Shown: positions 50,146 to 63,611 of the stretch, in pieces | Position numbering within the stretch: position 1 is the stretch's first letter | How the letters are laid out: each line of letters begins with the position of its first letter | DNA from: Algisphaera agarilytica | Lineage (GTDB): Bacteria > Planctomycetota > Phycisphaerae > Phycisphaerales > Phycisphaeraceae | DNA: 64,000 nucleotides | Direction of reading: 5' to 3' | NCBI RefSeq assembly: GCF_014207595.1 | Contig: NZ_JACHGY010000001.1 | Location: 4,000,212-4,064,211, forward strand | Program-made: the position numbers and the translations under genes | Notes under the pieces: generated by a model | What the model was told of the DNA's origin: nothing | Database searches by the model: none | Seen by the model: the letters and a program-made list of their open reading frames with translations, nothing else

Positions 50146-50907
50146 ATGGATGCGATCGCGACGACGCAACCCGAACTTCCGCCCAGCGTCTCGCAGAGGC
50201 GTCTGGTGCCGGAGGTGATGGACGACCCCGAGCTCGACCCGGCGTTGCACGAAGCGGCGCTGCGCGGACTGGGGCGGATCAACCGCGTGTCCCGGTCGGC
50301 GGCTATGTTGTGGCCCTCGATCGAGAAAGCAGCGGCGAGAAACTCCGGACGGGTTCTCCGTGTGTTGGACCTGGCCTGCGGGGGCGGCGACGTGCTGATC
50401 CAGCTCGCCCGTGGTGCGAAACGCAAAGGACTGCGGGTGGCGTTTGCCGGGGCTGATGTCAGCCCGGTGGCCCTGGACTTCGCCGCCGAGCAAGCCCGGC
50501 AAGCGGGGTTAGAGATCGATTGGATCCCGATCGATGTGTTCGAGCAGCCGCTGCCCGATTCGTTCGACCTCACCATGAACAGCCTCTTCATGCACCACCT
50601 CACAGCCGAGCAGGCGGTGGCGGTGTTCGGAAAGATGAAAGCGGCGTCGCCTACCGTGCTGATCAACGACCTGCGTCGCGGCCCGGTCGCCTACGCCATC
50701 ACGGTTGCGGGCACCCGTCTGCTGTCGCGCAGCCCGGTGGTCCACGTGGACGGCCCGCGTTCGGTCCGCGCGGCGTGGACCCCGAAGGAACTGCTGGCCC
50801 TCGCCCACGCCGCGGGTTTGCAGGGCGCGACCGTGCAACACCGCTTCCCCTGGCGGATGCTACTGAAATGGAACGCTTCCTCGGCAGATAAGGGAGGCGT
50901 GTCGTGA
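50146..50907 (+). CDS. Class I SAM methyltransferase of the type III PKS operon
   Basis: A 253-residue methyltransferase with motif I VLDLACGGGD (73-82), NSLFMHHLT in the middle and a C-terminal cap. It resembles the UbiE-like O- or C-methyltransferases that accompany bacterial type III polyketide synthases. Its end overlaps the next gene by four bases (GTGA). It is inferred to methylate the phenolic or pyrone product made by the third gene. Confidence 0.87.
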   Translation: MDAIATTQPELPPSVSQRRLVPEVMDDPELDPALHEAALRGLGRINRVSRSAAMLWPSIEKAAARNSGRVLRVLDLACGGGDVLIQLARGAKRKGLRVAFAGADVSPVALDFAAEQARQAGLEIDWIPIDVFEQPLPDSFDLTMNSLFMHHLTAEQAVAVFGKMKAASPTVLINDLRRGPVAYAITVAGTRLLSRSPVVHVDGPRSVRAAWTPKELLALAHAAGLQGATVQHRFPWRMLLKWNASSADKGGVS

Positions 50908-52091
50908 GTGAAACATGCATCGACGCCGTGGTGATCGGGGCGGGGCCCGCTGGCGCACTGGCAGCGCGTGGATTGGCGTTGCAAGGCCACTCGGTGTGGC
51001 TAGTCGACAAGCAATCGTTCCCACGCCCGAAAGTTTGCGGGTGCTGCCTGAATCAATACGCGATCACCTCGCTGGAGCGGGTTGGAATCACCGGATTGGT
51101 CGAGCGACTCGGCGGTCGACCCCTGGAGCGGTTGCACATGATCGCGGGTGGCAGGTCAGCAGATGTGCCGTTGCCACGCGGGGTGTCGCTGTCACGCGGG
51201 GCGCTGGACGGGGCATTGATCGAAGCGGCAAAGTTGGCCGGGGCGGACTTCATCGACGGCGTCTCCGCCAAAGTGCAGACGCTTGGCGGGACCGCCGAGG
51301 AAGGACACCGGGTGTCGCTGGGCTCGGGCAACTCGGTGGTGGCACGCGTGCTGGTCATCGCCGACGGCCTGGGCGGGTCCAGCCTCTCGGCGGTCGAAGG
51401 CTACCGCGTCGAGACCGCCCCGGCCTCGCGCATCGGCCTGGGCGGCGTGACCCGATCACCCGTCACTCAACCCACGATCCCCCGCGGCACGATCGCGATG
51501 GCTTGTGGCCAGGACGGGTACCTCGGCGTGGTCGAACTCGAAGACGGCCGGCTCGACTTCGCCGCCGCCATCGATGCCGCCGCCATCAAGCAAGCGGGCG
51601 GGATCGCGCAGGCGGCGCGACGGCTCGTCGAGCAGTCCGGGCTTGGCGATCACGATTGGCCGATGGACGACGTCGAACGCTGGCGAGCCACCCCGGCCCT
51701 GACGCGTACCCGCAAGCGTATCGCGGGGCCGGGGCTGTTCGTCGTGGGAGATGCCGCGGGCTACGTTGAGCCGTTTACCGGCGAGGGGATGGCTTGGGCG
51801 ATCGCGGGCGGGAGTGCCGTCAGCGAAGTTGCGTCCGAAGCGGTCCAGAAATGGGACACCTCTCAAGAAATCAGGTGGGTCGAACGCCACCGCGCCCGTA
51901 TCCGCAACCGCCAGGCGGGGTGCAAGCTGGTGGCCGCAACGCTGCGTCGGCCGTGGTTAACACGCGTGGTGGTGCGATCGCTGTCCGCCTGGCCGGGCAT
52001 CGCCAACCCGTTGGTCCGTCGCATCGCCGCCCCCGCAACCGCAAGTGATCCTGCTCCAACGCCATACACAAGGGAAGGATCATTCGCATGA
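50904..52091 (+). CDS. FAD-dependent oxidoreductase (geranylgeranyl reductase-like)
   Basis: A 395-residue flavoprotein: FAD-binding IGAGPAGALA at 11-20, the dinucleotide glutamate/arginine region VDKQSFPRPKVCGCCLNQ, and the second FAD motif VVGDAAGYVEPFTGEGM near 280. It belongs to the geranylgeranyl reductase/monooxygenase family that partners type III synthases and hydroxylates or reduces the polyketide. The GTG start at 50904 overlaps the methyltransferase stop; its own stop overlaps the synthase ATG. Confidence 0.88.
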   Translation: MSETCIDAVVIGAGPAGALAARGLALQGHSVWLVDKQSFPRPKVCGCCLNQYAITSLERVGITGLVERLGGRPLERLHMIAGGRSADVPLPRGVSLSRGALDGALIEAAKLAGADFIDGVSAKVQTLGGTAEEGHRVSLGSGNSVVARVLVIADGLGGSSLSAVEGYRVETAPASRIGLGGVTRSPVTQPTIPRGTIAMACGQDGYLGVVELEDGRLDFAAAIDAAAIKQAGGIAQAARRLVEQSGLGDHDWPMDDVERWRATPALTRTRKRIAGPGLFVVGDAAGYVEPFTGEGMAWAIAGGSAVSEVASEAVQKWDTSQEIRWVERHRARIRNRQAGCKLVAATLRRPWLTRVVVRSLSAWPGIANPLVRRIAAPATASDPAPTPYTREGSFA

Positions 52092-53215
52092 GTCTTTTGA
52101 TCCAGGGCCTGGGCACCGCACAACCGCCCCACGCGCTCGAACAAGAAGCCATGGCCGCCTCGGCTTTGCCCTGCTCCTGCAGCAACGAACGCCAGCGGAA
52201 GCTGCTGCCCACGCTCTACCGACGCGCCCACGTCGAACGCCGCCACAGCGTGGTGGTCAACGCCAAGAACGGCCACGCCAAGCTGCCCGTGCACGACCGG
52301 ATGCTGGCGTTCTACCCGCCCGCTTCCGACGCCAACGACCGCGGGCCTTCGCTCTCCGACCGCATGCGTCGTTACCCCGAGGAAGCCCTGCCGTTGGCGC
52401 TCGATGCCTGCCGGTCGGCGCTGGACGACGCGGGTGTCGCCCCCAAACAGGTCGGACAACTCGTCGTTGTGTCCTGCACCGGTTTCTCCGCACCCGGGGT
52501 GGACATCGGACTGATCGATGCGTTGGGTTTACCGCCCACGGTTGGCCGAACGATGGTCGGCTTTATGGGCTGCCACGGCGCGATGAACGGGCTGCGTGTG
52601 GCGCGGAGCCTCGCCGATGCGATCACCGAGCCGGATCAACACGTGCTGATGTGCTGCGTTGAGCTTTGCACCCTGCACTTCCAATACGGCTGGGACCCGC
52701 AGAAAGTCGTCGCCAACGCGTTGTTTGCCGACGGCGCTGCCGCGGTGGTCGGAAAGCCCGAACCCGTTGCGCGTCGAGACGACTCTTTTAACCTTCCGCG
52801 TGCCACGGCCCACGGCAGTTGCCTATTGCCCGACTCGCGTGACCTGATGACATGGATTATCCGGGACCACGGGTTTGAGATGACACTCTCGCCCAAGGTG
52901 CCCGACCTCATCCACCAGCACCTGCGTAACTGGATCGAACCCTGGCTGGCTGAGCAGAGCCTGACCGTTGAGCAGATTCAGGGCTGGGCGATCCACCCCG
53001 GCGGGCCGCGGGTTATCACGGCGGTGGAAGAATCGCTCGGATTGCCCGAAGGGGCCGGTGACGGTTCGCGGGAGGTGTTGCGCGAGTGTGGCAACATGTC
53101 CTCGCCGACGGTGCTGTTCATTCTGGACCGGCTCCGCCAGCAAGCCACCCCGCTTCCATGGGTCGCACTGGCGTTTGGCCCCGGCTTAACGATCGAAGCA
53201 ACGCTGTTTCGTTAA
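52088..53215 (+). CDS. Type III polyketide synthase
   Basis: A 375-residue chalcone/stilbene synthase-like enzyme that joins acyl starters with malonyl-CoA. The catalytic triad is complete: Cys162 in GFMGCHGAMNG, His303 in IHPGGPRVI and Asn336 in CGNMSS. The conserved TGFSAPGVD block is at 131-139. Long-chain acyl starters are usual for bacterial members, giving alkylresorcinols or alkylpyrones; the product here is not readable. Overlaps the oxidoreductase by four bases. The product is likely modified by the two upstream enzymes. Confidence 0.93.
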   Translation: MSLLIQGLGTAQPPHALEQEAMAASALPCSCSNERQRKLLPTLYRRAHVERRHSVVVNAKNGHAKLPVHDRMLAFYPPASDANDRGPSLSDRMRRYPEEALPLALDACRSALDDAGVAPKQVGQLVVVSCTGFSAPGVDIGLIDALGLPPTVGRTMVGFMGCHGAMNGLRVARSLADAITEPDQHVLMCCVELCTLHFQYGWDPQKVVANALFADGAAAVVGKPEPVARRDDSFNLPRATAHGSCLLPDSRDLMTWIIRDHGFEMTLSPKVPDLIHQHLRNWIEPWLAEQSLTVEQIQGWAIHPGGPRVITAVEESLGLPEGAGDGSREVLRECGNMSSPTVLFILDRLRQQATPLPWVALAFGPGLTIEATLFR

Positions 53216-56208: not shown

Positions 56209-57081
56209 ATGCTTGAATCACTCTCGAAACAGATCGGCGTGCTCACATTCATGGCCGCCGTCGCGATCCTTCCCCACCACGCGTCGTCCGAGCCGGTAGA
56301 GGGCATCGTTTTGCCCAGCAAGCAGGTCGTGCTCAACGCGCCGCTGCCCTCGATCCTCAAGGAGTTCACCGTGCGGGAGGGCGACAAGGTGGAAGCCGAG
56401 CAGCCTCTGGCGTTCATGGACGACAGCCTGCAGCAGGCCTCCCTGAAATCGGCCGAGTTTCAGGCGGCCAGCATGACCGCCATCCGCAACGCCGAGCTGG
56501 TCCTGGAAGACGCCCAGATCCAGGTGGAACGGATCCTCGAAGCCCAGAGTTCGGACGCCGCCAGTGAATGGGAAGTCCGCCGGACCAAGCTGCAGGCCGA
56601 AACCGCTGCCGCCCAGCTCGAACAAGCCCGCGAGCAGCAGGAACTGGCCAAGATTCAACTCGAACTCGAACGCGCCCGGCTCGAGCGCTACGCGGTGCTC
56701 GCCCCGTTCACCGGCCGAGTCCTGCGGATCGACGCCGAGGCCGGCGCCTCGCTGACGCAGCAGGACCAACTGCTCACCCTCGTGGCGATGGACCCGCTCG
56801 AAGCCCACTTCCACCTGCCCAGCACCGACTACGGCAAACTCGAAGTCGGCCGGGAGTACACCCTGGCGACCGACGCGTCGCGGCAGCTGTCGTTCAACGC
56901 CAAGCTGATCACCATCGACCCGGTGATCGACCCAGCCAGCCAAACGTTCCGCGTGGTGTTCGAGATCGACAACGCCGACGAAGCGTTGCCCTCCGGCTTT
57001 GCCGTGTGGGTCGATCCCGACGCCGTGGGCGGAGAAGCCGCCGCCGCGGTGTCGACCGAATCACACGGTTTTCTTGATTAA
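56209..57081 (+). CDS. Periplasmic membrane-fusion adaptor (HlyD/RND type)
   Basis: A 290-residue adaptor. Signal-like N-terminus (about 5-27, IGVLTFMAAVAILPHHASS), first lipoyl half with PLPSILKEFTVREGDKVEAE, a coiled coil (about 85-165, rich in Glu, Gln and Ala), the second lipoyl half with YAVLAPFTGRVLRIDAEAG and a beta-barrel. Such proteins bridge inner- and outer-membrane pumps. It has no pump of its own alongside, but converges on three genes for a SecA paralogue and two further HlyD-like proteins, so a shared machine is inferred. Confidence 0.86.
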   Translation: MLESLSKQIGVLTFMAAVAILPHHASSEPVEGIVLPSKQVVLNAPLPSILKEFTVREGDKVEAEQPLAFMDDSLQQASLKSAEFQAASMTAIRNAELVLEDAQIQVERILEAQSSDAASEWEVRRTKLQAETAAAQLEQAREQQELAKIQLELERARLERYAVLAPFTGRVLRIDAEAGASLTQQDQLLTLVAMDPLEAHFHLPSTDYGKLEVGREYTLATDASRQLSFNAKLITIDPVIDPASQTFRVVFEIDNADEALPSGFAVWVDPDAVGGEAAAAVSTESHGFLD

Positions 57082-57155: not shown

Positions 57156-59129
57156 TTACTCCACCCCGGCGAAGCCCAGCGAATCGGCGATCTGTTCGTC
57201 CTGTTTGAGGACCTGCTTGCGCATCGCCCTTGAACGCGACTGTGCCCGGCGTTGAGCGCGTTGGAAGAAGAACGGCACCCACCGGAGGCGGCCGTATCGG
57301 CGGATCAACTCGTCCTCCAGGCTCAGGAACATCACCGCATCGCCGGGGTCGCCCTGCCGACCCGCCCGGCCGAACAGCTGCCGGTCCACGCGGCGCGAGT
57401 CGTGGCGTTCGGTCGCGATGATCTGTAGGCCGCCGAGTTCGACCACGCCCTCGCCGAGTTTCACGTCGGTGCCACGCCCGGCCATGTTGGTGGCGATGGT
57501 GACTTGGCCACGCTGCCCCGCCGCCGCGACGACCTCGGCCTCCTCGGCGTGGCGGATGGCGTTGAGCACCTGATGCTCGATGCCGCGCTGGGTCAGCCGT
57601 TCGCTGAGCGTTTCGCTCGCGCCGACGCTGCGTGTGCCCACGAGGATCGGCCGTCCGGTGTCGTGCAGGCGTTGGACCTCGTCCGCGACGGCGTCCCACT
57701 TGGCGTCCTCGGTCGGCAGAATGCGATCGTTCGCCAGCTTGCGGATGATCGGGCGGTGGGTCGGGATGTAGGCCGTGGGCGTGCGGTAGGTCTGCCAGAG
57801 TTCGCGGCGTTCTTCCCAGGCCGTGCCCGTCATGCCCGAGAGGTTGCGGTACATGCGGAAGAAGCGTTGAAAACTGACACGGGCCATCGTCGCCTTGGGC
57901 GGTTCGACTTCCACACCTTCTTTGGCCGCGACCGCCTGGTGCAGGCCGTCGCGCCACTCGCGGTCGGGCATGAGCCGGCCGGTGGATTCGTCGACGATCA
58001 CGACCTTGTCGCCCTGCACGACGTATTGGATGCCGGCGACGTACAACTCCCGGGCGGTGATCGCCTGGACGATCATCTCCTCGGCCCGACGCTGTCCCGC
58101 CCAGATGCCGCCCAGCGATTCGGTGACCTCGGCGACCTTGTTCCGGCCGCGGCTGGTCAGCCGGATGTCGCGGAACTGGCGGTTCACCGTGAAGTCTTTG
58201 CGGACCTCAAACACCTGGGCGAGTTCCGCGGCTTTAATGAAGGCTTCGACCTGCTGGGCATTGGGCGAGGGGCCGGAGATGATCAGCGGCGTGACGGCCT
58301 CGTCGATCAGCACCGAGTCGGCCTCGTCGACGATGACGTGCTCGAGCCCGCGCATCACGACGCGCTGCGCCGCCCCGGCGGGGTTGTTGTCGCCCAGCCC
58401 GCCGCCCAGCATGAGTTGGTTGAGCATCGTGTCGGTCAGGCCACGCTGCGGGCCCAGGGTGAGCTTGTCGCGGAGGTAGTCGGCGGCGGCTTCTTTGTTG
58501 GTGGTGTAGGTCACATCCGCCGCGTAGCCCGCGCGGCGGACCGGCGGGTCCATGTCGCTGGTGACCGAAGCGACGGTCAGGCCGCACGCCTCGTAGACCG
58601 GCCGCATCAGGTCCGCGTCCCGCCGAGCGAGGTAGTCGTTGACCGTGATGACGTGCACGCCGCGTCCGGCCCAGCCGGCCACGGTCGCGGGCAGCGTGGC
58701 GATCAGCGTCTTGCCCTCGCCGGTGGCGACCTCGGCGATGCAGCCGTCGTGCATGGCCAACGCCGCGGCGATCTGGGTGGGGTAGGCCTTCAGCCCGATC
58801 GCGCGGAACGCCGACTCGCGGATGAGCGCGAACCCACGGGTCACATCGTCGGCCGTCTCACGACCCCGCCGGAACACCGCCCGCATCTCCAGGACCTGTT
58901 GCCGGAGCTCGTCGATGTGTAGCGATTCGATTTCCGGGGCCAATGCGATCACCGCGTCGGCCCGTTTGAGGTACCGCCGGGTGCGGGGCAGCCGCGAGAC
59001 GATCGCCGCGGCGCACGCCTCCCAGGCCGCGTCGAGGCCCTCGGGCAGACGCGGGGACGGGGGCCGGCTGGCCAGCATCCGCCACCACGAACTGGGCGGC
59101 AACGCAACTGGTGGATCGAGTCGACTCAT
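57156..59129 (-). CDS. SecA paralogue lacking the C-terminal third
   Basis: A 657-residue SecA-family ATPase. Both nucleotide-binding domains are intact: ATGEGKT (135-141), TVNDYLARRDA (162-172), the Walker B region VDEADSVLIDEA (267-278), NMAGRGTDVKL and QLFGRAGRQGDPGD. The preprotein cross-linking region lies between about 200 and 370. The protein ends after the first long helix that follows SLEDELIRRYG, so the helical wing, two-helix finger and zinc tail of housekeeping SecA (about 900 residues) are absent. It is therefore a specialised motor. Its start is five bases after the stop of the protease-adaptor gene. Confidence 0.9.
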   Translation of the reverse strand: MSRLDPPVALPPSSWWRMLASRPPSPRLPEGLDAAWEACAAAIVSRLPRTRRYLKRADAVIALAPEIESLHIDELRQQVLEMRAVFRRGRETADDVTRGFALIRESAFRAIGLKAYPTQIAAALAMHDGCIAEVATGEGKTLIATLPATVAGWAGRGVHVITVNDYLARRDADLMRPVYEACGLTVASVTSDMDPPVRRAGYAADVTYTTNKEAAADYLRDKLTLGPQRGLTDTMLNQLMLGGGLGDNNPAGAAQRVVMRGLEHVIVDEADSVLIDEAVTPLIISGPSPNAQQVEAFIKAAELAQVFEVRKDFTVNRQFRDIRLTSRGRNKVAEVTESLGGIWAGQRRAEEMIVQAITARELYVAGIQYVVQGDKVVIVDESTGRLMPDREWRDGLHQAVAAKEGVEVEPPKATMARVSFQRFFRMYRNLSGMTGTAWEERRELWQTYRTPTAYIPTHRPIIRKLANDRILPTEDAKWDAVADEVQRLHDTGRPILVGTRSVGASETLSERLTQRGIEHQVLNAIRHAEEAEVVAAAGQRGQVTIATNMAGRGTDVKLGEGVVELGGLQIIATERHDSRRVDRQLFGRAGRQGDPGDAVMFLSLEDELIRRYGRLRWVPFFFQRAQRRAQSRSRAMRKQVLKQDEQIADSLGFAGVE

Positions 59130-59133
59130 CGCC

Positions 59134-61335
59134 TCACATACTCAAGCGCCGCATCAGCATCTGCCGCAACGCCAGCCAGCCCTGCTCGGCCAGCGGCTGC
59201 GGCTCGAAGGTAAACCGCACATGCACCCGCTGCCCCGCCATCAACGGCGGCGCGCCTTCCGGGGCCGGGTCGGGCTTGATGCGGACCTCGAAGAAGGCTT
59301 CTGCGGCTTTCGTGCCCGTTTGGTCGGCCGTGTCCGTCGCCACCGAGCCGCCGGCCATGTAACCCATCGCGGGGCTGAATAGCTCGTTGCCGCCCGACTC
59401 GGCGACGCTCAGCACGGTGCCGTGATACGTCTCGCCGGGCCGGTTGGGGTTCTTGATCTCCACGGACCGCCCGACCCAGTTGCCCACTTCCAATCGGGGC
59501 CCGAGGTATTGGTCGGCCGCGGCGCGGATCACCAGGTCATCCAGCGACGCGACGACGCCCATCGGTTCGCCCCGCTTCACGAACCGGCCGGGCAAACGCT
59601 CGCTGTCGAACGAGACCCACGTCCCCGCAGTCGTCGGTTGGGTTTGCAGATCGGCCAGTTGGTCGGCGATGCGTTGCCGTTGGTCTTCCTGAGCCCGCAA
59701 CTGCCCGCGAAGCGCTTGGGCCACGGCGATGTCTTCCGACATGGCGGCGCGGTAGCGTGCTTCGAGCTGACGCTGGTCGCCCAGCAACTGGTCGTAAGCC
59801 GATTGCAATTCGAGGTTGTCTGCTTCGACCAGCACGTCGCGCTGTTCGGCATCGACCGTCACCGCCTCGCCCGTGGGCATAGCGGTATGGATGAAGCCAT
59901 CCGCCCCGGCGTAGATGCGTTCTAAGGTGACGGGCTCGACCAACGCCGAGGCCCGCCCGCGGTCGGGCACCGGTACCCCGCCGACCAGCACAGCGATCAG
60001 CAGCACCGTCGCCAGCGACGCGTAGATCGCCCGGCCGCGCGTCCGGGTCAGTTCCGGGCTGTTCGCCAAATACTTGATCCACTTTCCCCAGGGGACCAAG
60101 AGGAACGTGACCACCGCGAGGAACGCCATGATCATGCCGATGAAAAACAGCTGGCCCGCCACGAACAACACGATCGTGAAGCCCAGGAACACGCGGTACG
60201 CCGCGGACGCCAGGCCGTAGGTCACGAACCACACGGTTTCGCCCGCGCTGTGGGCCGGGTTCTTAGGGTTCTGCACGGCGTAGACGTGTTTTTTGACCAG
60301 GTAGTAGAGGTAGTCTTTGCTGCGCTGATAGAGATTGGGCAGCTCGGCGAGGTCCGAGAGGATGTAGTAGCCGTCGAAGCGGATCAGCGGGTTGGCGTTG
60401 AAGAGCAGCGTCGAAACGCTGGCGATGAACATGACGTTGTAGGCGATCGCATGGACGGTCGGGGTGTTGACGCCGGTGTTGGCCCAGACGACCGCGGCGA
60501 TCGCGGCACAGGCGATCTCGACGTACATGCCCGCCGCGCCGACGAAGGCCCTGCGCCACTTGCTGCGGAACGCCCAGGCGCTGCTGGCGTCGACGTACGG
60601 CACGGGCGTGAGCACCATGAGCATCAGCCCGATGGTGTGGACCTCGCTGCTGACCTGTTCTTTCTTGCCGAAGTATTTGACGCTGAACCCGTGGCCGAGC
60701 TCGTGGATCAACTTCAGAACGCCGAAGCTGATGTAGAGCAGCGGCAGGTTGGCGGGGTTCAGGATGTCGTTCTTCTGGCTGTAGAGCTCCCCGGCGTTGT
60801 CGGCGATGCTGAACACGCCGTAAGCGACCAATGCCATCCACAACACGATCCCCACCGGCCCGAAGATCCAGCCCACCAGCGGCGACCAGCGATCCAGCAG
60901 GCGATCCGGATCGAACAGCGGCACCCGCGCGAACAACACGTTCATCACGTAGCCACGCACCTGCCGGTTCATCCGTTTCTTGTAGCGGTTGAACATCCCT
61001 GCGGCGTCGGCGGGGAGGTCGGCGTGGATAAGGTTGGACGTGTAGAGCTGGCCGAGGATCTGGATCGCTTCACCTTGGGTGGGCGCGGCGTCGCCGAGCT
61101 GCTCGTTGCAGGCGTCCCAGACCTGGGCCACGGTCCGCCGGCCGTCGAGCATCGCGACGAAGCGGTAGGCCGACTCATCCACCCGGAAGAACTGGTTGTT
61201 CGACGGGTCACGGAACACCACCCACAGCCGGCCCCGGTAGTGCTGGCGGAACGTCTGCACCAACGAACGCAGCCGCGGCGTCATCTCCGCGACGCGGTAC
61301 CAGGATTCGTTGAAGGTGGGGCGATCAATGGCCAT
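59134..61335 (-). CDS. PqqD-like/M50 protease/HlyD fusion membrane protein
   Basis: A 733-residue protein with three parts. Residues about 20-110 resemble PqqD, a peptide-binding winged-helix domain (FRVDESAYRFVAMLDGRRTV). Residues about 150-455 are a site-2 protease of family M50 with several membrane helices, the zinc motif HELGH (211-215) and the second motif NPLIRFDG (315-322). After a last membrane helix (about 437-455), residues 465-725 form a HlyD-type lipoyl domain with coiled coil. The architecture matches what databases call putative peptide zinc metalloproteases, found with modified-peptide exporters. All three activities are inferred from motifs. Confidence 0.88.
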   Translation of the reverse strand: MAIDRPTFNESWYRVAEMTPRLRSLVQTFRQHYRGRLWVVFRDPSNNQFFRVDESAYRFVAMLDGRRTVAQVWDACNEQLGDAAPTQGEAIQILGQLYTSNLIHADLPADAAGMFNRYKKRMNRQVRGYVMNVLFARVPLFDPDRLLDRWSPLVGWIFGPVGIVLWMALVAYGVFSIADNAGELYSQKNDILNPANLPLLYISFGVLKLIHELGHGFSVKYFGKKEQVSSEVHTIGLMLMVLTPVPYVDASSAWAFRSKWRRAFVGAAGMYVEIACAAIAAVVWANTGVNTPTVHAIAYNVMFIASVSTLLFNANPLIRFDGYYILSDLAELPNLYQRSKDYLYYLVKKHVYAVQNPKNPAHSAGETVWFVTYGLASAAYRVFLGFTIVLFVAGQLFFIGMIMAFLAVVTFLLVPWGKWIKYLANSPELTRTRGRAIYASLATVLLIAVLVGGVPVPDRGRASALVEPVTLERIYAGADGFIHTAMPTGEAVTVDAEQRDVLVEADNLELQSAYDQLLGDQRQLEARYRAAMSEDIAVAQALRGQLRAQEDQRQRIADQLADLQTQPTTAGTWVSFDSERLPGRFVKRGEPMGVVASLDDLVIRAAADQYLGPRLEVGNWVGRSVEIKNPNRPGETYHGTVLSVAESGGNELFSPAMGYMAGGSVATDTADQTGTKAAEAFFEVRIKPDPAPEGAPPLMAGQRVHVRFTFEPQPLAEQGWLALRQMLMRRLSM

Positions 61336-61445: not shown

Positions 61446-63374
61446 TCAAATCCACAACTTCAACCGGACCCAGTTGATCGCGTCGCGTGTCCAGACCCAG
61501 CCGATGGGTGCTTGGCGGGAATCGATCTTGGCGACGCCCTCGATGCCGGGCTTGGCCCAGGGTTGGGTGTCGAGGAGTTTCACGCGGACGCGGAACACGT
61601 TGCTGCCGTCGATGACCTCGGCGATGGGGTTGATGCGTTCGACCTCAAACCGCAGCTTGACGCCGGGGTGGGCGGCGGCGGCGAGTTCGCCGACGGCGCC
61701 TTCCGAGGGCACGTCGCCGATCTTGCCGTCCGGCACCCACAACTCGGCCCGCAAGGCGCTCAGCGGCGCGACCTCGAACAACACATCGCCTTTGCTCACC
61801 GGCGAACCCAGCTGCTGCTTCAGGTCGCCCACCACCACCGTGCCCGCGATCGGCGAGCGGATGACCGCGTGATCGATCTGCCAACGCAGCCATTCGAGTT
61901 GCGCCTCGACATTCGCCACCCGGGCCTCGGCGATCTGGCGTTCGACCTGGCTGCCTTCGCGGGCCGCCATCTTGGCTTCTTTTTCGTACCCGAGCTGCTC
62001 TGCTTCGAGACGCGAGAGTTCTGCACGCAACTCCGCGGTGTTCAGCGTCGCCAACGCCTCGCCCTCCGCGACGACGTCGTTCGGCTCGGCTTCTACGGTT
62101 TCGAGGTAGCCCTCGAACGGCGCGGGGATCGAGCGTTGGGTCACCGCCTGGAACGTGAAGGGCGCTTCGACGCGGATCGTGCCGGGCACGAAGATCAACG
62201 CGAGAACCCCGGCCAGCAATGCGATCGCGGTGACTTTCGCCCAGGTGTGTTTCGGTCCGAGCACCGTCGCCAAGCTACGGCGGGCCGAGTCGGCCAGCCG
62301 GGCGCCGAACCAGCGGTCGGTCTCCGACAGCTCCAGCACACGGGGGGTGAACAGGTCTACCGCCATCCGCAGGAACGAGGCCTCTTCCACGGTCAGGGGC
62401 TGATCGATCGGACGCTCGAGGGTGACCACCCCGATCACTTCGCCGCCGCGCCGCATGGGCAGGCTGCACACCGCCGACGGGCCGTGCTTGCTGGAGAGTT
62501 CCTGGGCGGCGCGGTTGACCATGGTGGCTTCGGGCAGCACGGGGTGCAGCACCTCGATGTCCTGGTCGAGCGACTCTTCCATGGCCGACTCGATCGCGCC
62601 GACCAACGCCATCTTGCGGCTGATGTGTTCGGTCTGGCTCATCGCGCGCAGCTTGACGTAACGCCCCGAGAGCAGGCCGATGCTGACCCGGTCGGCCCGC
62701 CACCGCGAGGCGATCTCGTTACACAGCGCGATCGCCGCTGCGCGGAAGCGCCGATGGTCGTTGCTGGCCGAGAGCACGCGGGTCGCGGTGGACAGCCCCC
62801 GCAGGTCGGCATCGCGTTGCTCCAAGACCTGCCGCATCTCGTAGAGACTCAAGAGGCTGATGCTCAACTCGATCCGTTGGCAACGGGCCTGGACGATCTG
62901 GGGGTCGTCGGTGTCCAGCAAAAAGGCCGACACGCCGGAGAATCCGCCGGGGGTTTTGATGGGGACCAGCACGAGGTGGTGAACCATCGGGCGTCCGGGA
63001 TCGGACAGCGCCGCCTGCAGCTGATGCACCTGGGTTTCAGGCGCCAAGGGCGATTGCTGAGTCACCAACTCGATGGCGTGGGCCAGCCAGGACGGCGGCG
63101 ATCCCGTGGCCGGGAGCGGCGGGTAAACCGCCATGATTTCTGAGGTTTTGGCGGAAGGCGGCATCGGCCGATCCGACGGGACAGGCGTCGCTGCAATCTC
63201 ACCCCCCAACCGAACCACCGCTCCCGCGGTCGCCTGCCCAAGCCGGCACTGCGTCGCCAGCAGCTCGGTGAGAAACTGCTCCGGCGGTCCGCTGAAACGG
63301 ACCAGACGCTCGACCAGCCCCGAGGCGGAGCCGCCCCATCGCTGGGCCGCGGTCATCGGCGGGTTCAGGCTCAT
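61446..63374 (-). CDS. GAF domain-HlyD adaptor fusion
   Basis: A 642-residue protein. Two GAF-like segments (about 30-165 and 205-345; the second has VCSLPMRRGGEVIGVVTLER) are followed by one membrane helix (379-397, VTAIALLAGVLALIFVPGT) and a HlyD-like adaptor (404-640: PFEGYLETVEAEPNDVVAEG, a short coiled coil, then HAVIRSPIAGTVVVGDL). The GAF part should lie in the cytoplasm and the adaptor part in the periplasm, so it may couple a cellular signal to export. It is the first long gene of the three-gene minus-strand cluster. Confidence 0.87.
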   Translation of the reverse strand: MSLNPPMTAAQRWGGSASGLVERLVRFSGPPEQFLTELLATQCRLGQATAGAVVRLGGEIAATPVPSDRPMPPSAKTSEIMAVYPPLPATGSPPSWLAHAIELVTQQSPLAPETQVHQLQAALSDPGRPMVHHLVLVPIKTPGGFSGVSAFLLDTDDPQIVQARCQRIELSISLLSLYEMRQVLEQRDADLRGLSTATRVLSASNDHRRFRAAAIALCNEIASRWRADRVSIGLLSGRYVKLRAMSQTEHISRKMALVGAIESAMEESLDQDIEVLHPVLPEATMVNRAAQELSSKHGPSAVCSLPMRRGGEVIGVVTLERPIDQPLTVEEASFLRMAVDLFTPRVLELSETDRWFGARLADSARRSLATVLGPKHTWAKVTAIALLAGVLALIFVPGTIRVEAPFTFQAVTQRSIPAPFEGYLETVEAEPNDVVAEGEALATLNTAELRAELSRLEAEQLGYEKEAKMAAREGSQVERQIAEARVANVEAQLEWLRWQIDHAVIRSPIAGTVVVGDLKQQLGSPVSKGDVLFEVAPLSALRAELWVPDGKIGDVPSEGAVGELAAAAHPGVKLRFEVERINPIAEVIDGSNVFRVRVKLLDTQPWAKPGIEGVAKIDSRQAPIGWVWTRDAINWVRLKLWI

Positions 63375-63533: not shown

Positions 63534-63607
63534 GGGCCATTGGCGCAGTTGGCTAGCGCGCCTCGTTGACATCGAGGAGGTCACTGGTTCAAGTCCAGTA
63601 TGGCCCA
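63534..63607 (+). tRNA. tRNA-Val (anticodon GAC)
   Basis: A 74-base cloverleaf. The acceptor GGGCCAT pairs with ATGGCCC, followed by discriminator A. The D arm uses GCGC/GCGC, and the anticodon arm CCTCG-TTGACAT-CGAGG shows anticodon GAC, which reads GUC and GUU valine codons. The T arm has the GTTCAAGTC-type loop. CCA is not encoded and must be added afterwards. Promoter and terminator flank it, so it is a single-gene unit. Confidence 0.95.
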
Positions 63608-63611
63608 CTTC

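Follow-up and report, generated by a model that had tools for sequence, protein, structure and literature searches.

A single 733-amino-acid protein of Algisphaera agarilytica combines a PqqD/RRE domain, an M50 site-2 protease and a HlyD-like adaptor, and we propose, with a probability of roughly 0.6, that this fusion forms the inner-membrane centre of a system devoted to exporting and processing giant surface proteins that begin with a LEPR-XLL leader and mostly have no clear Sec signal. The gene lies in a 64,000-nucleotide stretch of the 4.17-Mb genome, here called the window, whose relevant features are collected in Table 1. The domain architecture of the protein, the operon that encodes it and its genomic association with LEPR-XLL giants were all observed directly and are described below, followed by the mechanism that they suggest.

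Table 1. Features of the fusion gene and its surroundings, in window coordinates
Feature	Position	Strand	Basis
PqqD/RRE - M50 site-2 protease - HlyD-like adaptor fusion, 733 aa	59134..61335	(-)	ATG start; open reading frame, profiles and fold
PqqD-like domain, residues 43-103	61027..61209	(-)	Pfam and AF2 model
HELGH zinc-protease motif, residues 211-215	60691..60705	(-)	H211, E212, G214 and H215 invariant in 7/7
NPLIRFDG second M50 motif, residues 315-322	60370..60393	(-)	Homologue alignment
C-terminal HlyD/barrel-sandwich-like region, residues 472-733	59134..59922	(-)	Weak in A. agarilytica, clear in E. coli plasmid homologue
GAF - HlyD membrane-fusion protein, 642 aa, operon partner upstream of fusion	61446..63374	(-)	Pfam and locus comparison
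SecA-like ATPase, 657 aa, start 4 nt after M50 gene	57156..59129	(-)	NBD1, PPXD, NBD2; TGEGKT, DEAD, GRAGRQGD
RND-type membrane fusion protein, 290 aa, convergent, outside operon	56209..57081	(+)	Pfam and NCBIfam

For most homologues the alignment covers almost the full length of the chain, indicating that the fusion is not a chance joining, and the RRE is N-terminal, ahead of the protease core. Scored at full length, the protein reaches 22.0 bits against the Pfam PqqD model, below the cut-off of 23.4, and residues 1-119 alone pass that cut-off (26.7 bits, E 7e-6). The same model (PF05402) matched 31 of 36 homologue N-termini at E≤0.01, the 36 having been chosen from 63 homologues (58 planctomycete and 5 plasmid-borne, with the E. 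coli homologue left out), and a profile built from homologue N-termini retrieved PqqD 3g2b from the PDB (E 7e-4). An AF2 model of residues 1-130, computed from 7 sequences (pLDDT 75, pTM 0.67), has the b-b-b-a-a-a order of an RRE, with strands at 27-33, 36-43 and 48-53 and helices at 54-62, 69-83 and 87-99. Ranked by structure against the PDB, this model placed leader-bound RREs at ranks 1-3 (Z 8.6 for TfuB1, 8.2 and 8.1 for TbiB1), followed by the non-RRE enzyme GdmN (Z 7.2) and then PqqD 5sxy at rank 5 (Z 6.2), scores below 8 being of a size that can reflect a common arrangement. Foldseek returned no match to the model at E≤0.001; retroviral integrases filled many of its listings, superposed poorly and were not taken as related. 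The initial annotation had staked its PqqD assignment on the N-terminal ~120 residues resembling PqqD models, and because the profile and the structure ranking agree, the assignment stands.

The protease core scores 22.6 bits against the Pfam M50 model PF02163 (residues 201-284, cut-off 27.2), a threshold that the E. coli plasmid homologue exceeds, at 34.7 bits. The HExxH motif is kept in 58/58 homologues, 56 times as HE.GH and once each as HEFSH and HELAH, and the pattern NPx(4-5)DG is present in 54 of the 58. The NCBIfam model for daptide metalloproteases, NF041824, aligns to residues 20-413 (E 3e-44) with 151.9 bits against a cut-off of 300. The HlyD tail is weak in A. agarilytica (E about 0.16 by Pfam), and in the E. 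coli plasmid homologue HlyD_3 matches at E 2e-16. The union of PqqD-like domain, M50 protease and HlyD adaptor in one chain, as initially annotated, is thus borne out by the open reading frame, the profiles and the intact M50 motifs, with the tail as its weak point.

We then compared 59 loci and found the M50 gene in 58 of them (the exception being L089); these counts include two pairs that look like the same organisms (L035/L044 and L039/L076). In 53/58 loci the gene directly upstream of the fusion encodes a protein of the GAF/HlyD cluster, and in 35/58 the next gene downstream encodes a SecA-like protein. Pfam detects no scaffold/wing (PF07516) in the A. agarilytica SecA-like protein, whose chain ends after NBD2, and the protein scores below the cut-off of every SecA or SecA2 model listed from NCBIfam. 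The scaffold/wing is also unmatched in the SecA-like counterparts of Pseudosulfitobacter, Methylosinus and Mesorhizobium, and the other SecA of A. agarilytica is a separate gene that keeps it. A role in anti-phage defence was rejected: PADLOC linked only a helicase segment within the SecA-like protein to DpdF, with 18.8 bits. Clustering of picked genes places a protein of ~125 amino acids in 14 loci, and counting small frames as well gives DUF3467-like open reading frames in 20/58; Pfam finds DUF3467 in both planctomycete members scanned. The sole DUF3467 match of A. agarilytica lies away from the operon (L119 6723-7073 (+)), where it adjoins an open reading frame that by eye resembles NADH dehydrogenase subunit H. 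We considered DUF3467 as a SecB-like chaperone and set this aside as an idea only (AF2 pLDDT 43 from 4 sequences; PDB profile hits at chance level, best E 0.14).

Within eight genes of the planctomycete operons, two TolC queries found no TolC-type neighbour at E≤0.01, and three unlabelled neighbours of 468-515 amino acids, checked as TolC candidates, proved unrelated or gave no match; elsewhere, the A. agarilytica genome has four open frames with matches of TolC type. Relatives of the 290-aa RND-type adaptor recur near homologous operons, and at one locus such a relative stands beside an AcrB-type RND pump gene near the operon (L045 12965-16285 (-)). Representatives of the recurring neighbours include a prolidase, a short-chain dehydrogenase, a GH88-like protein, a succinate-dehydrogenase-like protein and a response regulator, with two lacking a match, and those scanned look like bystanders. 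The 984-aa gene upstream was tried as the operon's substrate and rejected: its N-terminus is hydrophobic like a Sec signal, it has one weak relative and it is not conserved, and Pfam gave no match over the 958 residues scanned. Between it and the operon lies a tRNA-Val gene (window 63534-63608 (+)), on the strand opposite to the GAF-adaptor gene. Further away in the window (50146-53215 (+)), genes for a methyltransferase, an FAD-binding oxidoreductase and a chalcone/stilbene-type (type III) polyketide synthase overlap head to tail and form a compact polyketide operon.

The initial annotation had read the fusion as a device for handling a peptide or protein tail, with a substrate that may be unmodified, and had looked to small peptides encoded near homologues. 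We collected 142 clusters of 20-90 aa open reading frames within 1.5 kb of 58 homologues and read the 22 clusters present in at least 3 loci, none of which held a precursor-like gene; the largest correspond to parts of DUF3467 and adaptors, and others resemble antisense frames, shadow frames or fragments of longer open reading frames. The recurrent partner that emerged is instead a giant protein with a LEPR-XLL leader. Two classes of modification enzyme were searched: the window holds no radical SAM match at E≤0.001 (16 lie elsewhere in the genome), and no LANC-like match occurs in the whole genome. A leader-reading domain joined to a protease and an adaptor, probably acting on the end of a protein with nothing pointing to modification, survives from that reading, and its setting in RiPP or small-peptide biology is not supported.

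Large genes adjoining several operons carry an N-terminal LEPR-XLL motif, and the NCBIfam model NF012209 matches three of four giants scanned, one over its cut-off and two 0.1 bit below. A home-made leader profile found a leader-bearing open reading frame in the fetched stretch of 9/59 loci, and none among shuffled sequences. Among the 150 LEPR matches listed, 7 fall 10 kb or less from any of the 63 fusion genes, where 0.86 would be expected (P 3e-5), and in two genomes of one genus (G007 and G036) the single LEPR match at E≤1 is borne by the gene that immediately precedes the operon. Used by itself, the LEPR model is noisy: half of the control genomes (7/14) match at E≤1 and 0/14 at E≤0.003, and some matches sit in frames shorter than 300 aa.

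Across genomes, we found a fusion homologue at E≤1e-10 in 50 of the 61 nearest genomes (A. agarilytica included) and in 78 of 292 Planctomycetota genomes. LEPR-XLL matches at E≤0.003, a threshold chosen after seeing the matches in the nearest genomes, occur in 27 of the 292, divided between 26/78 fusion carriers and 1/214 non-carriers (Fisher 8e-16, a value that, like the other Fisher values, overstates independence because nearby genomes are related). The fusion and LEPR searches of the 292 genomes used identical settings and are hence taken as the same draw. The sole fusion-negative genome with a LEPR match, G187, owes it to what reads like a shadow frame, and it has no fusion homologue; 52 of the 78 fusion-positive genomes lack a LEPR match at this threshold. 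Among the 61 nearest genomes, 38/50 carriers and 0/11 non-carriers match LEPR at E≤0.01, and these 11 fusion-negative relatives are not independent, since 6 of them fall in one family, f3. In near-complete genomes of the organism's own family, f1, and of f2, LEPR-XLL accompanies 26 of 29 carriers and none of 4 non-carriers (p 9e-4). These two families were picked because each holds both states, f3 containing only negatives and f4-f6 being all positive; in f4-f6 of the order, only 4/12 carriers have LEPR at E≤0.003.

To describe the leader, we fetched 40 leader regions and retrieved 34 of them with a search pattern. Because that pattern itself specifies some of the motif positions, their invariance is in part built in. 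The most frequent letters give [LF]-E-[PA]-L-E-P-R-[VL]-L-L-S-A-[DST]-P. The maximal hydropathy over 15 residues stays below 1.7 in 33 of 34 leaders, the other (L143) reaching 1.83, and among proteobacterial starts that of Methylosinus stands at 1.75; both come close to the yardstick of 1.87, which is taken from one Sec-like N-terminus, making this a weak test. A. agarilytica itself has three LEPR matches over the cut-off, none beside the operon: a 2883-aa protein with malectin, kelch, CHRD and CBM domains, a 1134-aa protein with cadherin-like, PA14 and GSDH domains, and a gene interrupted by a run of N (L118 3802-9830; G000:C1 ~2052301-2058329). Behind the run of N in this third gene lies a long repeat-protein frame.

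Fusion matches also occur in 73 plasmid records, including those of Alphaproteobacteria, Variovorax, Citrobacter and E. coli, of which we inspected 16 in detail. An annotated gene of 12-49 kb heads the operon in 10 of the 16 and a long open frame in three more (L170, L171 and L174); in the remainder, the head is cut by the record start (L173), a 4.2-kb gene (L176) or a 1.5-kb gene (L179). TolC is adjacent in 7/16, and no ABC exporter is annotated in the 16 operons or recognised among the recurring neighbour families scanned. Of 11 upstream genes whose starts were read, five have a clear LEPR-XLL leader (Methylosinus, Mesorhizobium, Pseudosulfitobacter, Pontibrevibacter and Thalassospira), and in each of these alphaproteobacterial plasmids the fusion operon, in Thalassospira without SecA, stands behind the LEPR-leader giant. 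Degenerate leaders begin three others (LEARYMF in Variovorax, LESRQLF in E. coli and Citrobacter), and the last three, an Azospirillum giant, an Alisedimentitalea giant and a short Magnetospirillum gene, show no LEPR motif at their annotated starts. In the Pseudosulfitobacter operon a SapC-family gene (L101 17245-18066) sits between the M50 and SecA-like genes. The genes L101 18059-20083 and L169 8204-10120 are annotated as ‘prepilin peptidase’, a label that looks wrong for both because they match SecA DEAD, PPXD and P-loop models. The Phyllobacterium plasmid carries a separate T1SS on the other strand.

The E. coli plasmids show a compact form of the operon (NZ_CP081687.1 44829-64580; L103/L120) consisting of a DUF4347/cadherin giant, TolC, an adaptor, HlyD and the M50-HlyD gene, without SecA. 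The giant starts with its LESRQLF segment and continues with DUF4347 and cadherin-like domains. The E. coli form of the M50 gene is found in 24/5426 complete E. coli genomes, 22 of them over at least 80% of its length. Neither SecA nor DUF3467 is present in the annotated operons of Variovorax, E. coli and Citrobacter. In the E. coli homologue no PqqD match appears at E≤0.1, and in that of Thalassospira the match falls below the cut-off (E 0.02); Pfam shows no GAF in the partner adaptor of either.

For each mechanistic step, namely docking, clipping and export, we infer a role from the domains present. RREs dock leader peptides as an added strand, and a cytosolic RRE in the fusion would dock the leader [L/F]-E-x-L-E-P-R-x-L-L-S-A in the way that other RREs bind RiPP leaders. 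Together with DUF3467, the truncated SecA, which is an ATPase missing the scaffold/wing, may retain the unfolded chain or pass it on; the M50 site would clip the leader or gate release, and the adaptors with a TolC-type channel would form the duct.

The same components could instead make up a release or surveillance device, in which the giants exit by another route and a complex of GAF protein, M50 protease and adaptor senses and clips them, comparable to the Lap adhesin system that controls retention. The intact M50 motifs and the GAF domain of the partner speak for such a device, and the association with surface giants fits it equally well. We nevertheless regard it as unlikely, as several adaptors, a SecA-type ATPase and TolC in 7/16 plasmid operons look like a conduit, and the device would need another exporter because most leaders have no clear Sec signal. 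It is less probable still that the operon is a pump for small molecules with an incidental RRE-like domain: the adaptors do resemble RND and EmrA types, and an AcrB-type pump gene is present in L045, but this is the only pump among ten neighbours scanned by Pfam, none was recognised among the scanned neighbour families found in at least 3 loci (two of which have no Pfam match), and neither an M50 protease nor a truncated SecA is a pump, nor would a pump account for the co-occurrence with LEPR-XLL.

A cassette for maturation and export of RiPPs or small peptides, close to the daptide metalloprotease setting, would explain the RRE fold and the long alignment to the daptide_HExxH model, and yet the score of 152 is about half the curated cut-off of 300, and the absence of a precursor-like gene from the 22 clusters, of radical SAM from the window and of LANC-like matches from the genome leaves this the least probable of the readings considered. 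The co-occurrence could also reflect nothing beyond shared ancestry, with both families ancestral in these planctomycetes and not working partners, a view to which the concentration of fusion-negative relatives in f3 lends itself. This we consider improbable, given that linkage exceeds expectation, that both are jointly absent from 4/4 negatives of f1 and f2, and that the same pairing recurs on five alphaproteobacterial plasmids.

The export and processing system that we favour shares parts with several known systems and departs from each. With PqqD/RRE proteins (PF05402; PqqD, TfuB1 and TbiB1) it has in common the b3a3 winged-helix domain, which is here fused to a membrane protease and an adaptor, and whose likely ligand is the leader of a giant protein and not that of a RiPP. 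A single daptide metalloprotease model spans both the PqqD-like and the M50 part of the fusion, whereas the fusion has an extra adaptor tail and the searches made found no RiPP genes. HlyD-family adaptors and, in plasmid operons, TolC are shared with type I secretion and tripartite efflux (HlyD-TolC), and, as in type I secretion, the giant substrates are by annotation Ca-binding, Ig-like or tandem-repeat proteins. Type I substrates usually carry a C-terminal signal, whereas here the leader is N-terminal and the operon has a SecA-like ATPase and an M50 protease, with no ABC exporter seen in it. The SecA-like protein shares NBD1, PPXD and NBD2 with intact ATPase motifs with Sec and accessory SecA2, but is without scaffold/wing, and most of the substrates are without a clear Sec signal. 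The leaders of the partner giants match the LEPR-XLL domain model, which is here tied to a machinery.

We advance more tentatively, at somewhat under an even chance, that this is a separate type of protein secretion across Planctomycetota and Proteobacteria, in which an RRE of the RiPP-leader type has been recruited to recognise LEPR-XLL as a signal on chains of thousands of residues, a cut-down SecA motor replaces the ABC exporter and a protease-adaptor couples leader removal to entry into the duct. Each of its component proteins belongs to a known family, and the conduit is similar to that of tripartite exporters. In the open-access literature we found no description of such a machine and no explanation of how giants with LEPR-XLL leaders and no clear signal peptide exit the cell. 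LEPR-XLL is mentioned in passing, with no machinery assigned, in the relevant passages of PMC10868602 and PMC9611531, and a passage of PMC11573180 counts Planctomycetota as one of the bacterial phyla most prone to huge proteins. For the export of LEPR-XLL giants, the operon described here offers candidates for the machine, for the signal and for the reader of that signal. If the proposal is true, RREs would work outside peptide natural products, and a SecA motor would work without its usual scaffold.
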